From: Candidatus Gastranaerophilales bacterium
GTDB taxonomy: Bacteria; Cyanobacteriota; Vampirovibrionia; Gastranaerophilales; Gastranaerophilaceae
Direction of reading: 5' to 3'
Length of the DNA: 64,000 bases
Assembly (NCBI GenBank): GCA_944324945.1
Contig: CALUYE010000006.1
Coordinates: forward strand, 1 to 64,000
Part shown: one piece after another, positions 1 through 5,685 of the stretch
How positions within the stretch are numbered: position 1 is the first letter of the stretch
Layout: every line of letters begins with the position of its first letter
Translations under genes and position numbers: made by a program
The notes under the pieces: generated by a model
Told to the model about the DNA's origin: nothing
What the model saw: the letters and a program-made list of their open reading frames with translations, nothing else
Databases searched by the model: none

Positions 1-320
1 CGACACAGCCCTAAGTGCCGGATAGGAACGGCAAAATTTTTTACACTTCTATTACTTCTTTATCGCACATTAGCAAATTGAAGAGTGTTATAATCTTGCG
101 CCGGTAGTAAAACATCTGCGAAACGATGCTGATATTCTAAATGCATTCTTTATTGACCACGAAAAAGATATCCAAATTTAAATACTGTTTAAAAGGTGTT
201 TAAAAGCCGTTTTAATTGTGTTCAAAAATTATTATGTCTGAATGATACGATTTAAGACACATATACTTGATGTTTCCCGATGAAAGAGCGATGAATGGTG
301 TAGCTTGAAAGGAGCATACT
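1..320. other. Left-edge stretch without a recognisable gene
   Basis: I see no supported gene. The only frame open from the left edge is the first plus frame, which stops after about 26 codons and gives a non-protein-like string. The stretch presumably carries the promoter of the small-gene cluster starting at 321, but no strong -35/-10 pair stands out. I compared it by eye with the TTGCAC array upstream of the transposase (5305-5430) to look for the opposite transposon end and found no matching motif, so the left end of the element is probably outside the window. Confidence 0.4.
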
Positions 321-533
321 ATGATTGAAATCGGTAAAAAATACAGATTGAAAAAACTTAAAGGATGGTTTGAAAAAGATAGCGAAGAGTTTACGGTTTT
401 ATGTTTTGGTGAACCCAATATTGTCGGCTGCGTTACACCAGATGGTGAAAGATATGTATTTGATAAAGATTTTTTGATTGATCCTGATAAGCCGGATGAG
501 ATATACGCAGATATTACAATAACGAAAGGATAA
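321..533 (+). CDS. Small hypothetical protein, 70 aa
   Basis: A 70-residue acidic/basic soluble protein that I do not recognise. The start is supported by a good AAAGGAG ribosome-binding site 7 nt before ATG. It has no signal peptide, membrane segment or cysteine cluster. It is the first of three closely packed genes, with only 3 nt to the next. Its centre (an FTVLCFG stretch, then CV, then GERY) weakly resembles the next gene product (LLICLWE, CV, GKRY), so the two may be distant duplicates. It lies in the accessory region next to the transposition operon. Function unknown. Confidence 0.65.
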   Translation: MIEIGKKYRLKKLKGWFEKDSEEFTVLCFGEPNIVGCVTPDGERYVFDKDFLIDPDKPDEIYADITITKG

Positions 534-536
534 ATT

Positions 537-737
537 ATGTTTGAAAAAGATTACAAGTTATACGGAACAAAGATTTTAAACTTAAAAACGCAAGAAATAG
601 GTTTGTTGATTTGTTTATGGGAGAATAAATTCGCCGATAAAACAGTAGATTTTGCAACTTGTGTAGATAAAACTGGCAAACGCTACAACATTGAACTAGA
701 TAATATAAGAGGGTTTGACGATGATTTTGAAAAATAA
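537..737 (+). CDS. Small hypothetical protein, 66 aa
   Basis: A 66-residue soluble protein of unknown function. ATG follows the upstream gene by 3 nt, with an AAGGA ribosome-binding site inside the end of that gene, so the two are likely co-transcribed and translationally coupled. A conserved-looking CV-x(2-3)-G-(E/K)RY stretch is shared with the upstream product, suggesting an old tandem duplication; the similarity is too short to be sure. No membrane segment or catalytic motif is visible. Confidence 0.6.
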   Translation: MFEKDYKLYGTKILNLKTQEIGLLICLWENKFADKTVDFATCVDKTGKRYNIELDNIRGFDDDFEK

Positions 738-948
738 ATTAACAAAAGAAATACTAGATATTCCATATTCTGAATTCAGAATAAAGTTTGCCAAAGAAAT
801 TCAGGATGCGTTTGAAAGTTATCGCAAAACTCAACTAAATAAATATTCTTGGAATTTCAAAGATGCTAACTCTTTGGAGTTTAATTTTTATTTTGAACTT
901 CATTGGAACTTTAATCATTTTGGAATGTCAAATTGGTACATTGAATGA
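721..948 (+). CDS. Small hypothetical protein, 75 aa
   Basis: A small soluble protein rich in aromatic residues (Phe, Tyr, Trp) towards its C-terminus. It overlaps the end of the preceding gene. A TTG start at 715 is possible, but ATG at 721 has an AGAGGG ribosome-binding site about 8 nt upstream and is preferred. It is the third gene of the 321-948 cluster. No family recognised, no signal peptide and no membrane segment. The aromatic-rich C-terminal half (about residues 45-75) looks like a folded beta-type domain, but that is only an impression from composition. Confidence 0.5.
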   Translation: MILKNKLTKEILDIPYSEFRIKFAKEIQDAFESYRKTQLNKYSWNFKDANSLEFNFYFELHWNFNHFGMSNWYIE

Positions 949-1872: not shown

Positions 1873-2274
1873 TTACATTCCTAAAATATCTCTTTCAACT
1901 ATTTTTACAATATCTTCCGGTAAATATTCTTTCTTGTTAGACTTTTGTTTTGGCTCGGTAATTTGTTGTTTAACCTGTGGCAAATTTTTCAAGATATTCA
2001 TCAATGAATACATTTCTGCCTGTGGAGTTTGTTGATTATTATCAATATCATTTGAAATTTTATCCATAATTTTTTGTGCAAAATTTAGCAGTTCACGATT
2101 AAAGAGTTTCTGCTCTCGGCATTTTTCAAACCTCTTTCTATCCCATTCATATTCTTTCTTCCAATAAAATAAAGTCCTGCGCGAAAGATCAAGTTTTGTG
2201 CCAATCACATCAAGCGGTTGTTGTTCGTAAACATATAAATGCTCTGCCTGCTTTAATTTATCCAATTTTGTCAT
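1873..2274 (-). CDS. Terminase-small-subunit-like HTH protein
   Basis: A 133-residue basic protein. Residues about 8-45 (LYVYEQQPLDVIGTKL, then SRRTLFYWKKEYEWDRKR) form a helix-turn-helix with the W-x(n)-DR-R signature typical of phage small terminase subunits (gpP-like and DUF1804 families, the latter known from Mu-like phages). The remainder is helical, ending in a Lys/Gln-rich linker and a short C-terminal helix. It follows the previous gene by 2 nt, with GAGGT 8 nt before ATG. No large terminase, portal or capsid gene follows, so either the element has recruited this DNA-binding protein for transposition or it is a remnant of a transposable phage. Family assignment is by motif, not search. 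Confidence 0.65.
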   Translation of the reverse strand: MTKLDKLKQAEHLYVYEQQPLDVIGTKLDLSRRTLFYWKKEYEWDRKRFEKCREQKLFNRELLNFAQKIMDKISNDIDNNQQTPQAEMYSLMNILKNLPQVKQQITEPKQKSNKKEYLPEDIVKIVERDILGM

Positions 2275-2276
2275 AT

Positions 2277-2831
2277 TTATACCTCAAAAATTATTCTGTC
2301 TACTGTAAATTTTGTTTTATCAGATAATCTTCGCACCTGAAAATTACAAGTTCTATCAATTATTCCAAGATTTTGAAAATATTTAATCATCTGATTTAGA
2401 AGTGCTAGTGTATTTTTCAATACTTTTGGTGGCAAATTTCTGCCTTTACAAAAATCGTAAAATTCTTGAATATCGTTACAAGTAATATCATTTAAATTTT
2501 TATTTTTGAAAAATGGGGAAATGTAGTATTTTAACATTCTTCGATATCTTCTGTAAGTATTTAATTTACAATTGTTTTTGACATAATTTTCCAAAAAATA
2601 ATTAATCGCAGCATCAAATGTTATAACCTGAAAATTTGTCACTTGGTTTGTGCAAATGATAAATTCTTGCTTAGGCTTTTCTTCCTGATATTTATATAAT
2701 CCTTGTCCAAATACCAATTTATCCTCGTTCAAAAGCAGTTCAAGTTCTGTTTTACAATCGCATTCCGCAATCATTTCAATTTCATCAAGTGTAAATTCTT
2801 TTAAATGTCGCGCCAATTTTTCTATGTTCAT
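2277..2831 (-). CDS. Integrase core-binding-like protein lacking catalytic domain
   Basis: A 184-residue protein. Residues about 72-165 (AINYFLENYVKNN, NTYRRYRRMLKYYISPFF, DITCNDIQEFYDF and helices ending near NLGIIDR) read like the SAM-like core-binding domain of tyrosine recombinases. The sequence then ends after about 20 residues: the catalytic R-K-H-R-H-Y domain is absent, and no downstream frame supplies it. The N-terminal 65 residues are helical and acidic. The start overlaps the ATPase stop in ATGA, so the two are translationally coupled. It is probably a sequence-specific DNA-binding partner of the transposase/ATPase, in the position other elements give to TniQ/TnsD target selectors. 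That role is inference. Confidence 0.6.
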   Translation of the reverse strand: MNIEKLARHLKEFTLDEIEMIAECDCKTELELLLNEDKLVFGQGLYKYQEEKPKQEFIICTNQVTNFQVITFDAAINYFLENYVKNNCKLNTYRRYRRMLKYYISPFFKNKNLNDITCNDIQEFYDFCKGRNLPPKVLKNTLALLNQMIKYFQNLGIIDRTCNFQVRRLSDKTKFTVDRIIFEV

Positions 2832-3508
2832 AAAATCTGCTCCATAATTTCTTTTGTAATTTCCGCTAAATTATTATCTTTTGAGAATGTTTCCATTTGA
2901 TTTATTAATTGAACAATTTGCCGGAATCTATTGTATTTTAAATGTATATATTCAATCGCATCGGGAGTAAATGGAACTTCTGAAAGTTGCCCGATTATTT
3001 GCGATAAATCATTCATTCCAAATGTTTCAAACTTCAGAATTTCTGAAAATCTGTCATAAAGGTGTTTGTATCGTTCAAGTTTTCTGTGCACCAAACCCAT
3101 TCCGATAAAAATTATCGGGCATCCGGTTTCATCGTGGATATCACGCAGGGTTTCAATGGTTTTGTAGTTATTCATTAAATAATCAATTTCATCAATAAAA
3201 ATCACTTGCGGGTTATTTTTCAGCTTTTTTACAACGATATTAAAATTATCCGATGTCAAAAATCTTGGTATTTCATCAAGCTCTTTAACAATTTCTTCAA
3301 GCAGCCATCTGCCTGTCATAAGGTTTGATGCCCGAAGATAAATTCCATCATATTTGCACGCAAGCCATAAAGCTGTTTGGGATTTTCCGAGTCCCGGTTC
3401 ACCATACACTAATCCCATCTTCGGGATATTTTGGGGTTTGTTTATCAGATTTTCAACAAGTCCGATAAAGTTTTTTATGTTTTGCGTTTTAACAAATATT
3501 TTCTTCAT
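2828..3508 (-). CDS. Transposition ATPase, MuB/TnsC/TniB-like
   Basis: A 226-residue AAA+ ATPase. Walker A is GEPGLGKS (residues 36-43), Walker B VIFIDE (102-107), and a sensor-1 segment IIFIGMG lies at 132-138; a C-terminal helical lid follows. Length and motif order fit the short MuB/TniB/IstB-like transposition regulators. Such ATPases form DNA-bound filaments that choose target DNA, stimulate the transposase and give target immunity. The gene start lies 20 nt inside the end of the transposase gene, and its stop overlaps the next start, so the operon is translationally coupled. The transposase-ATPase pairing makes this call firm; which subfamily it belongs to is open. Confidence 0.85.
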   Translation of the reverse strand: MKKIFVKTQNIKNFIGLVENLINKPQNIPKMGLVYGEPGLGKSQTALWLACKYDGIYLRASNLMTGRWLLEEIVKELDEIPRFLTSDNFNIVVKKLKNNPQVIFIDEIDYLMNNYKTIETLRDIHDETGCPIIFIGMGLVHRKLERYKHLYDRFSEILKFETFGMNDLSQIIGQLSEVPFTPDAIEYIHLKYNRFRQIVQLINQMETFSKDNNLAEITKEIMEQIL

Positions 3509-5195
3509 ATAACAATTGATACTCCTTTGTTTGCTTAAATTTTTCTATCCATTCATCTTGTGGATTATGGATTATTAAATACTCATATTTATCAGCATTA
3601 TTTTTAAAACTCTTGTAAACACCATTTGAACAGCTTTTAAACACAGCTTGAACTGTTGGTTCTCCAGTTTTTGTTTCTAATATTTTAATATCTTCTGTTT
3701 CCAGATATTTTTTAACAGACTCAACTGTTTTCTTTTTGAGTTGTCGTTGTTTGACAATTTTTTGCTTGTAATCCTCAAAATCTTTAACATCACCCAAGAG
3801 TTTTGCCATCGGATGTGTTTCTGTTACACGTTCTGCGGTGCATAAATATTCGCCTTTCGGGGTGTAAACCTTAATACTTGTCAGGTCAAAAAGATTGTAT
3901 TTAATAAGAACTTTGCTCTTAAATCCATATAACCTTTCGTCAAAATAGTCGCAATTTAAGAACCTTATGCCGTTTCTTTGAATTGTTTTTACTTCTGTTG
4001 CAAGCATCAAATCGTCAAGTGCATTTATATCAATATTTTGTCTTTTTCGTTCTTCTAAAACTTCAGCCACTGTTTTATCCAGAGCATTAGGGCAAGGTTG
4101 AGAATTCTTAAAACGCAGCCACATATCTATCATTTTGATTGTTTCTTCTATTGTGGGGACATATTCGTTATGAAGACTTTTGTGGAATTTTTCATTCCTC
4201 ATCATATACGCAGGTTTGTTTTGAATACTGCTTCCGATGTAGCTCGGCAACAATTTTTCAAAACCTTCCTGAAATTCTTTAAAAAATCTTTCAATTACTT
4301 TTGCTCGGGCGTTATATGGTCTTGCAAAAACGGTTTCTATTCCGAGTTTTGAATACAATCCTTGAAATCCAAGTTCTGTGAATCCTTTATCGTCAGTAAA
4401 ATATTTTGCTCTAAATGCTCTGCCGTTATCCTGATAAACAACTTTCGGTATCATATCAAGATTGATAATTGCATTCCTAAGAGCCGATGCTATGCATTGC
4501 GTATTTTCTTCAAGCATAATTTCATAACCAACTAAAGCTGTTGATTTCCAATCCAAAAATCCGACAAGAGTTACTCTTGTGGGTTTGCCTGTGAATGGAT
4601 TTATCACCTGAAACGCTAATTTATGTCCGTCGGCTACTAAAATATCCCCGACTTCTAAAAGAGAAGCGTCACGTTTTATATATGGTTCAACTTTATCAGA
4701 AAGTGCTTTTTCTCCGTCACGAGCGAGAATCCATTTGTCATAATTATTATCCTTAAACCATTTTGCATAACGTCTAAATGTAATATCTGCAGGTATAAAA
4801 CTTTGCCCTTGCTCATGCAATTTGTATTTAGTGAGTGCAACTGCTTTTCCGATTGAAATTCTATTCGGGTGCAAAAGCAACCCCATAAATATTTTAATTT
4901 CTCCATCATTCAATACTGTCCGATAATCATTTACACTGCTATACTTATATTGTGGCAGAAGTTTTGTATAGTCTTCCGTTCCATTTAGCATAGCAAGCCA
5001 GCGATGCAAACTACCACGGGATATTTCCCCTAAAATTTCAAAAAGGTGAGAATTTGAAGTATTATGCAATTTCACAAAATCATAATCGGCTTGAAGTTTA
5101 TTTTGAGATTTATTCCTGAATTCAAGCCATTTATGAACGATATCAAGTCTTGCAAGTGCAATTTGTTTACATTTTTTGGGTGTGAAGTTTGTCAT
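3489..5195 (-). CDS. MuA/TnsB-type DDE transposase
   Basis: A 568-residue integrase-fold transposase. The N-terminal region (about 1-170) contains helical DNA-binding domains. The catalytic domain carries D189 (VADGHK), D256 (YQDNGRAF) and E302 (KVIERFF), the expected DDE triad for cut-and-paste or replicative strand transfer. Residues about 385-450 (GIRFLNCDYFD, KVLIKYN, IKVYTPKGEYLCTAE) match the Mu-transposase C-terminal beta-barrel. A basic C-terminal tail, likely contacting the ATPase, follows. GAGGT about 8 nt before ATG supports the start. First gene of the operon; all three catalytic residues are intact and there is no frameshift, so it may be active. Family known from phage Mu, Tn7 (TnsB) and Tn552/Tn5053. 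Confidence 0.9.
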   Translation of the reverse strand: MTNFTPKKCKQIALARLDIVHKWLEFRNKSQNKLQADYDFVKLHNTSNSHLFEILGEISRGSLHRWLAMLNGTEDYTKLLPQYKYSSVNDYRTVLNDGEIKIFMGLLLHPNRISIGKAVALTKYKLHEQGQSFIPADITFRRYAKWFKDNNYDKWILARDGEKALSDKVEPYIKRDASLLEVGDILVADGHKLAFQVINPFTGKPTRVTLVGFLDWKSTALVGYEIMLEENTQCIASALRNAIINLDMIPKVVYQDNGRAFRAKYFTDDKGFTELGFQGLYSKLGIETVFARPYNARAKVIERFFKEFQEGFEKLLPSYIGSSIQNKPAYMMRNEKFHKSLHNEYVPTIEETIKMIDMWLRFKNSQPCPNALDKTVAEVLEERKRQNIDINALDDLMLATEVKTIQRNGIRFLNCDYFDERLYGFKSKVLIKYNLFDLTSIKVYTPKGEYLCTAERVTETHPMAKLLGDVKDFEDYKQKIVKQRQLKKKTVESVKKYLETEDIKILETKTGEPTVQAVFKSCSNGVYKSFKNNADKYEYLIIHNPQDEWIEKFKQTKEYQLLYEENIC

Positions 5196-5304
5196 AATGA
5201 ATTACCTCACACACATTCATCACTCACCTTTCGGAATAAATCAAGTCCTGAATCTCAATCTCAGAGACATTTTGACACATATCAAACTAAAAGATAAATA
5301 ATTT

Positions 5305-5430
5305 TTGCACTTTATTGCACTATTTTGCACGGGGTAAATGTTCAAATATATTGGCACTTTAAGGCATGAAAAACACTAAAAACCACAAATATTAGTGCAA
5401 AATAGTGCAAAAATCAGGACAAAAGTGCAA
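5305..5430. repeat. Helically phased TTGCAC array with inverted copy
   Basis: Three TTGCAC hexamers start at 5305, 5315 and 5325, exactly one helical turn apart. The reverse complement GTGCAA occurs at 5395, 5405 and 5425. The 16-bp unit TTGCACTATTTTGCAC (5315-5330) is repeated perfectly inverted at 5395-5410, with the centre near 5362. A degenerate TTGGCAC lies at 5351. The array is 110-235 bp upstream of the transposase start, between that gene and the tRNA. It most likely binds a protein of the element, either the transposase at its end or one of the small DNA-binding proteins as an operator. No copy was found elsewhere in the window. Confidence 0.8.
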
Positions 5431-5612
5431 GAAAAGTCCGGCAAATCTCTACTCTATAAATATGCCTCAAACTAGCAACAACTCGGCATCATAGCCAATA
5501 TAAACGCATCTAAACTGTCCTGAAAACCTATAATCTCCATAACACTCTTGCGCATATACATTCACTTGTATTCACCTGCTCCGAAGGAACAAGTCTCAAA
5601 TTGCAAAAAATA
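5431..5612. other. Element-tRNA junction region without gene
   Basis: Between the TTGCAC array and the 3' end of tRNA-Ala I see no gene. There is an imperfect 10-bp direct repeat (ATTCACTTGT then ATTCACCTGC, 5560-5579). The outer end of the element should fall in this interval, but without an uninterrupted copy of the site the exact base cannot be given. I found no second copy of the tRNA-Ala 3' end in the window that would act as an attachment-site duplicate. Confidence 0.4.
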
Positions 5613-5685
5613 TGGAGCGTAGGGGATTCGAACCCCTGACCCCGACGCTGCCAGCGTCGTGCGCTACCAGCTGCGCTAACGCCCC
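5613..5685 (-). tRNA. tRNA-Ala (GGC anticodon)
   Basis: A complete cloverleaf reads on the minus strand: acceptor GGGGCGT paired with ACGCTCC (one G-U), D stem GCGC/GCGC, anticodon stem CGACG/CGTCG with loop CTGGCAG (anticodon GGC), T stem AGGGG/CCCCT with TTCGAAT loop, discriminator A. The 3' CCA is not encoded. Its 3' end faces the transposition module, a common arrangement for elements that integrate beside tRNA genes. Confidence 0.96.

Follow-up and report, generated by a model that had tools for sequence, protein, structure and literature searches.

How does an element that carries the machinery of phage Mu, a textbook case of nearly random insertion, come to lie just behind a transfer RNA (tRNA) gene, and what selects that site? 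The question is raised by a 64,000-nucleotide stretch of DNA (termed here the window: positions 1 to 64,000 of contig CALUYE010000006.1, assembly GCA_944324945.1), which starts at one end of contig C6, one of 15 in a genome of 1.92 Mb, and includes the left portion of a cargo transposon from an uncultured Candidatus Gastranaerophilales bacterium. An initial analysis of the letters alone (the sequence-only reading) noted four overlapping or nearly abutting genes beside a tRNA gene and proposed that they constitute a new targeting system, in which a recombinase-like DNA reader takes the place of TnsD. The analysis described here supports, with good confidence, the view that this is a targeted cargo transposon of phage-Mu-type machinery whose third protein reads the T-arm of the target gene through a core-binding domain; it is also likely that the system is modular and lacks TniQ, such that a swap of the ~110-residue core-binding domain retargets a Mu-type transposon among tRNA and transfer-messenger RNA (tmRNA) genes.

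The four genes are present as leftward open reading frames at 1873-5195 (Table 1): tnpA overlaps tnpB, tnpB overlaps the third gene, and 2 bp separate the third gene from the fourth. The first two had been described as a Mu/Tn7-type pair with intact catalytic and ATPase motifs. The acidic residues D189, D256 and E302 of TnpA do not vary among eleven divergent relatives, and TnpB has AAA/TniB domains; among named records the pair is closest to transposable phages (27.5% identity of TnpA to phiRTG5 and 35.5% of TnpB to HS6) rather than to Tn7. The third product, read as the DNA-binding half of a tyrosine recombinase, matches Phage_int_SAM_3 and nothing catalytic; the fourth, read as terminase-like, resembles terminase small subunits (a weak DUF1804/Terminase_5 match) and a phage DNA-binding family, and has a weak helix-turn-helix (HTH) match. 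The adjacent tRNA gene is tRNA-Ala(GGC). What required correction is the extent of the module, given as 1873-5430: the outer edge of the element in the window is at 5532, and on the other side it continues past the contig end, with a right end on contig C2. The four-gene order recurs across many copies, so that the third and fourth genes are conserved with the transposase, the opposite of which had been named as an argument against the proposal.

Copies with a TnpA at least 75% identical were taken as close, and in 78 of these the left end could be identified and sufficient sequence lay upstream of it. In 61 of the 78 a tRNA or tmRNA gene lies at most 230 bp upstream of a left end, which sits behind the 3' end of the RNA gene, and in all 61 the RNA gene is on the transposase strand; given how densely tRNA genes occur in these loci, adjacency would be expected in 0.25% of cases. 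Insertion at random, the outcome that the sequence-only reading had regarded as fatal to its proposal, is therefore not observed. Five further copies adjoin truncated tRNA 3' halves, and three lie directly behind another copy's right end. Assigned targets include genes for Ile, Leu (three isoacceptors), Met, Asp, Lys, Ala, Ser, Arg, Gln, Gly, Thr and Tyr tRNAs and for tmRNA, and simple copies are inserted 38-127 bp (median 71) past the RNA gene. Helical periodicity of the spacing is weak (period 9.8, p ~0.01, several periods having been tested), and no claim is made for it.

Which component accounts for the choice among these targets was explored by co-variation, using the 65 copies with an assigned target and the 31 that remain after collapsing similar core-binding domains. 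Among the 65, the nearest neighbour by core-binding domain predicts the target amino acid in 64% of cases, as against 40% for TnpA, 37% for TnpB and 14% after shuffling; among the 31 the corresponding values are 58% for the core-binding domain, 13% for TnpA, 5% for TnpB and 22% for the winged helix that precedes the core-binding domain. Pairs of copies with TnpA at least 85% but core-binding domains less than 50% identical share a target in 14 of 467 cases, whereas pairs with TnpA less than 82% but core-binding domains at least 60% identical do so in 65 of 92. Core-binding identity correlates with the similarity of the target T-arms (r = 0.59; permutation maximum 0.13), and this persists within the 33 simple copies having a single left end (r = 0.40; permutation maximum 0.17). 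The partial correlation is 0.56 for the core-binding domain given TnpA and -0.03 for TnpA given the core-binding domain. When the comparison is slid along the target, the correlation is strongest in the 5' portion of the T-arm and falls to near zero downstream; pairs of different tRNAs likewise correlate mainly at that 5' part. Individual clusters of core-binding domains illustrate this: the tmRNA, Ser, Lys and Arg genes hit by one cluster mostly have a GGG-TTCGA-CCC T-arm, the Asp and Gly genes of another have the same T-arm (GCGAGTTCGAG), and the Ile and Tyr genes of a third have the same 5' T-stem (GGTGGTTCGA). The check that the sequence-only reading had suggested, namely whether the core-binding protein co-varies with the tRNA-adjacent site, is thus positive, and supports its notion of a recombinase-like reader in place of TnsD; from this co-variation we infer that the third protein directs targeting.

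The predicted structure of the third protein (AlphaFold model AF2; predicted local distance difference test score 85) consists of a winged helix (residues 1-52), a linker of low confidence (53-66) and a helical domain (65-174), the last of which matches the core-binding domains of integrases, with Z scores of 14.1 for 3nrw and 12.1 for lambda Int (2oxo), clearly higher than those of unrelated entries. The winged helix is almost constant across targets, and because of this it may contact the constant part of the machinery. More distant relatives have longer third proteins that include a tyrosine-recombinase domain. When two full-length examples were aligned to solved recombinases, one (L047) appeared to have lost the arginines and histidines while keeping the tyrosine, and the other (L050) had several key catalytic residues changed; another longer third protein (L041) has a weak Mu DNA-binding subdomain. 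These relatives often have a same-strand tRNA gene upstream. No relatives of the third protein were found in viral contigs.

Several observations weigh against the reading in which the third protein selects the target by its T-arm. Four copies (L176, L198, L201 and L212) have no recognisable tRNA or tmRNA gene upstream of the left end and no Rfam match there; the spacing between T-arm and insertion point varies widely, more than in Tn7; the core-binding cluster to which the window's own protein belongs is promiscuous (Leu, Ala, Lys, Thr and Met); and two copies deviate from the usual target of their cluster (L204, at Met, and L039, at Leu). Moreover, the copies share descent, so that the permutation values overstate their independence; TnpA and TnpB have the same descent, yet yield little signal once the core-binding domain is accounted for. 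There is a small chance that insertion beside tRNA genes comes instead from the machinery itself, from a host factor or from survivorship at safe sites, and that the third protein is a regulator or an integration-neutral DNA binder. Sites past tRNA terminators are neutral and are used by many types of element, and domesticated tyrosine recombinases elsewhere serve as repressors, with MrpR, YopR and SroF among the structural matches of the third protein. Against this alternative stand an orientation without exception, a target identity that tracks the core-binding domain rather than TnpA or TnpB, and a T-arm held in common by the different RNA genes of one domain type.

The ends of the element bear on another alternative, namely that these are islands moved by tyrosine integrases that recombine at tRNA 3' ends, with the Mu-type genes as passengers. 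The left-end tip (TATAGGTTTTCAGGACA and variants) is conserved, and lies 336-340 bp from tnpA wherever cargo does not intervene. A search for an inverted copy of this tip as the right end found none, because the two ends share only ~12 degenerate bases; the right end, which terminates in ...TTAAATTACA, was located where two elements are stacked, one having inserted into the left end of the other. (Window positions 77-320, considered as a right end on account of their conservation, were rejected as the 3' part of a small gene.) Nine elements of 12.7-17.8 kb have both ends in one locus, and each is flanked by identical 5-bp sequences (AAAAA, GCGGC, CGCAT, ACTCA, GGAGG, ATAGT, GAGGA, ACCAC and TCTAG). 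One locus (L131) has a direct empty site: its two flanks, when joined, match without interruption in six sister species, and lie 15.6 kb apart in the carrier. The left flank of the window element reads GAGAT|TATAGG at 5532/5533, and the single right end found in its genome, at C2:6078, is followed by GAGAT; from this match, C6 and C2 would be joined as one element across an unassembled gap. An empty site for this element was not found in the genus, because the C2 flank is not conserved there at the DNA level. At several sites old left-end tips adjoin newer left ends and therefore record repeated insertion at one site. Upstream of six elements a 1.2-kb segment with a toxin-antitoxin-like gene pair (116 and 106 residues) lies between two left ends, and is possibly a mini-element without tnpA.

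Transport by integrases is, in view of these ends, very unlikely. It draws on direct repeats of the tRNA or tmRNA 3' end in the flanks of three loci (L124, L125 and L128), which show that integrase-type islands use the same RNA genes, and on a tyrosine integrase of 355 residues encoded within the window element on contig C2; yet the junctions are of transposon type, with conserved terminal sequences and exact 5-bp duplications that differ from site to site, insertion falls mostly 38-127 bp past the RNA gene rather than within it, and the empty site is explained without recombination in the tRNA. A segment of ~170 bp is alike in the flanks of L125 and L128.

The sequence-only reading had included the fourth gene in its proposed targeting system; the third tracks the target and the fourth does not. 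That the fourth protein picks the target is highly improbable: it is predicted to bind DNA and is kept in the operon in 59 of the 65 copies, but its partial correlation with the T-arm given the core-binding domain is -0.04 (-0.09 after deduplication), whereas the core-binding domain retains a partial correlation of 0.60 given the HTH protein and TnpA.

The distal cargo of the window element, on C2, comprises, besides the integrase, a gene pair matching Hachiman HamA/HamB and part of an HsdS-like gene (the HsdS identity being judged by eye). The cargo tested in other elements consists largely of restriction and defence genes; in five of them (L136, L138, L143, L046 and L039) these include IetAS, Lamassu-like, DRT UG5-nitrilase, type IIG restriction, McrBC and short pAgo-SIR2 systems. 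That the operon belongs to an ordinary Mu-like prophage, as its early region, is a possibility raised by the sequence-only reading itself and favoured by the best matches of TnpA and TnpB, which are to transposable-phage families. It is hardly credible given the limited length of the nine two-ended relatives, the restriction and defence genes in the cargo examined, site-specific insertion, and no match to phage structural (head, tail or packaging) proteins among the ten cargo proteins of one complete element (L138).

For the targeted transposon favoured here we infer the following course of events. The integrase core-binding domain of the third protein would bind directly to the T-arm of a tRNA or tmRNA gene, and the winged-helix part would contact the shared machinery, with TnpB as the most likely partner; this ATPase would then bring the ends bound by TnpA to DNA that lies mostly 38-127 bp past the 3' end of the RNA gene; and the element would go in left end first, generating a 5-bp duplication and leaving the RNA gene intact. 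Exchange of the core-binding domain would yield a new target. If so, domain exchange is a route by which a transposon can gain and switch targets, and, in gut bacteria, Mu-type machinery is tied to defence islands next to tRNA genes. The many natural swaps of core-binding domains open the specificity code of this domain to direct test.

Table 1. Features of the transposon and its target within the window
Feature	Position	Strand	Description
tnpA	3489..5195	-	Mu-type DDE transposase, 568 aa; rve and Mu-transpos_C; phrog_310 transposase, E 3e-86
tnpB	2828..3508	-	MuB/TniB-like AAA+ ATPase, 226 aa; AAA_22, TniB; phrog_296 DNA transposition protein, E 1.5e-40
Third gene	2277..2831	-	Proposed target selector; Phage_int_SAM_3, E 2e-13; no catalytic domain
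Fourth gene	1873..2274	-	Small HTH protein; DUF1804/Terminase_5 (weak), phrog_756, E 2e-11
Left end (LE)	5195..5532	-	Tip 5'-TATAGGTTTTCAGGACA on minus strand; outer edge 5532, shared by other copies
Inverted clusters of three TTGCAC and three GTGCAA repeats	5305..5430	.	Probable transposase binding sites; spacing kept in nearly all close copies
Target-site duplication ATCTC (minus strand GAGAT)	5533..5537	.	Equals GAGAT after the right end, contig C2:6079-6083
tRNA-Ala(GGC), target gene	5613..5685	-	ARAGORN
tRNA T-arm AGGGGTTCGAATCCCCT, proposed recognition sequence	5621..5637	-	Co-variation with the third protein is strongest in the T-arm
Three small accessory genes (70, 66 and 77 aa)	321..948	+	Homologues in ~50 of the loci examined
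Cargo gene, 241 aa	1045..1770	+	Without family match above cut-off

The product of the 241-residue cargo gene has a 99% identical homologue in a tmRNA-targeted element (L125). The small opposite-strand genes at 321-948 recur in most elements and are joined by a fourth, truncated one (~74 residues; window 77-200). A motif, TTCATCACTC...AAATCAAGT, is common to the promoter region of these small genes and to that of tnpA (window ~5217-5252), which suggests that they may be under common control. Of the genomes sampled, 196 of 286 from the order and 250 of 383 from the family encode a TnpA homologue; the named records are mostly of Candidatus Gastranaerophilales from animal guts, and a survey of 292 genomes across the phylum gave strong matches in the order Gastranaerophilales alone, with one distant exception. 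In three loci (L037, L038 and L042) a second, divergent Mu-type transposase (~25% identical) is found downstream of the first, a few kb away, accompanied in L038 and L042 by a second TnpB-like ATPase.

How does this system compare with those already known? With Tn7-like elements it shares a DDE transposase with an AAA+ partner and a 5-bp duplication at a specific site. TniQ/TnsD is described as ubiquitous in the Tn7 clade (PMC10293859); a search for TniQ (PF06527) was negative in all 56 genomes of the order, and the same search was positive in 24 of 146 genomes drawn from the phylum as a whole, none of them in Gastranaerophilales. TnsA is absent from the operon and from the region directly upstream at the left end, no genome-wide search having been made. 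With the transposable phages (Mu, BalMu-1, HS6 and phiRTG5) it shares the transposase and ATPase families; unlike them, it has no structural genes that could be found, carries defence cargo and inserts in a fixed orientation behind tRNA genes with 5-bp duplications. In the Fusobacterium phage phiRTG5 a degenerate tyrosine-recombinase gene (259 residues; L247:3230-4009) lies just upstream of the transposase, a possible case of parallel recruitment. Attachment (att) sites at tRNA genes are used by Tn7-like elements and CRISPR-associated transposons (types V-K, I-D and I-B2) by way of TnsD/TniQ or a guide (CRISPR) RNA (PMC11406308); these resemble the present element in carrying cargo and in inserting near a tRNA gene at an offset from the recognised sequence, and differ in that no TnsD, TniQ or CRISPR component was found in the operon here. 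The Tsy transposon, whose site is chosen by a TnsF homologue, moves by an active tyrosine recombinase (PMC10293859); its recombinase-derived site choice is alike, but it has no DDE transposase.

The nearest counterpart is TnsF, an inactivated tyrosine recombinase that requires TniQ and targets comM in Tn6022-type Tn7-like transposons (Faure et al. 2023, PMC10293859); it works with TniQ, TnsA, TnsB and TnsC, and has N-terminal zinc fingers and core-binding domains that are thought to read the target (PMC10293859). In both cases a tyrosine-recombinase-derived protein without catalysis partners a DDE transposon with an AAA+ ATPase, here as the proposed selector. Here, however, the selector consists of a winged helix and one core-binding domain, the targets are many tRNA and tmRNA genes distinguished by their T-arms rather than comM, and TniQ was not found in the order. 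For a Mu-type element steered to tRNA genes by a recombinase-derived protein the open-licence literature offered no precedent, which is not proof of novelty. Target selection by an inactivated recombinase was already known from TnsF in another context; in the present system the machinery is Mu-phage-like, no TniQ was found and the reader domain is exchangeable. If the proposed mechanism is correct, a relative of Mu has been turned into a site-specific element by recruiting the DNA-reading half of an integrase, as an independent parallel to TnsF.

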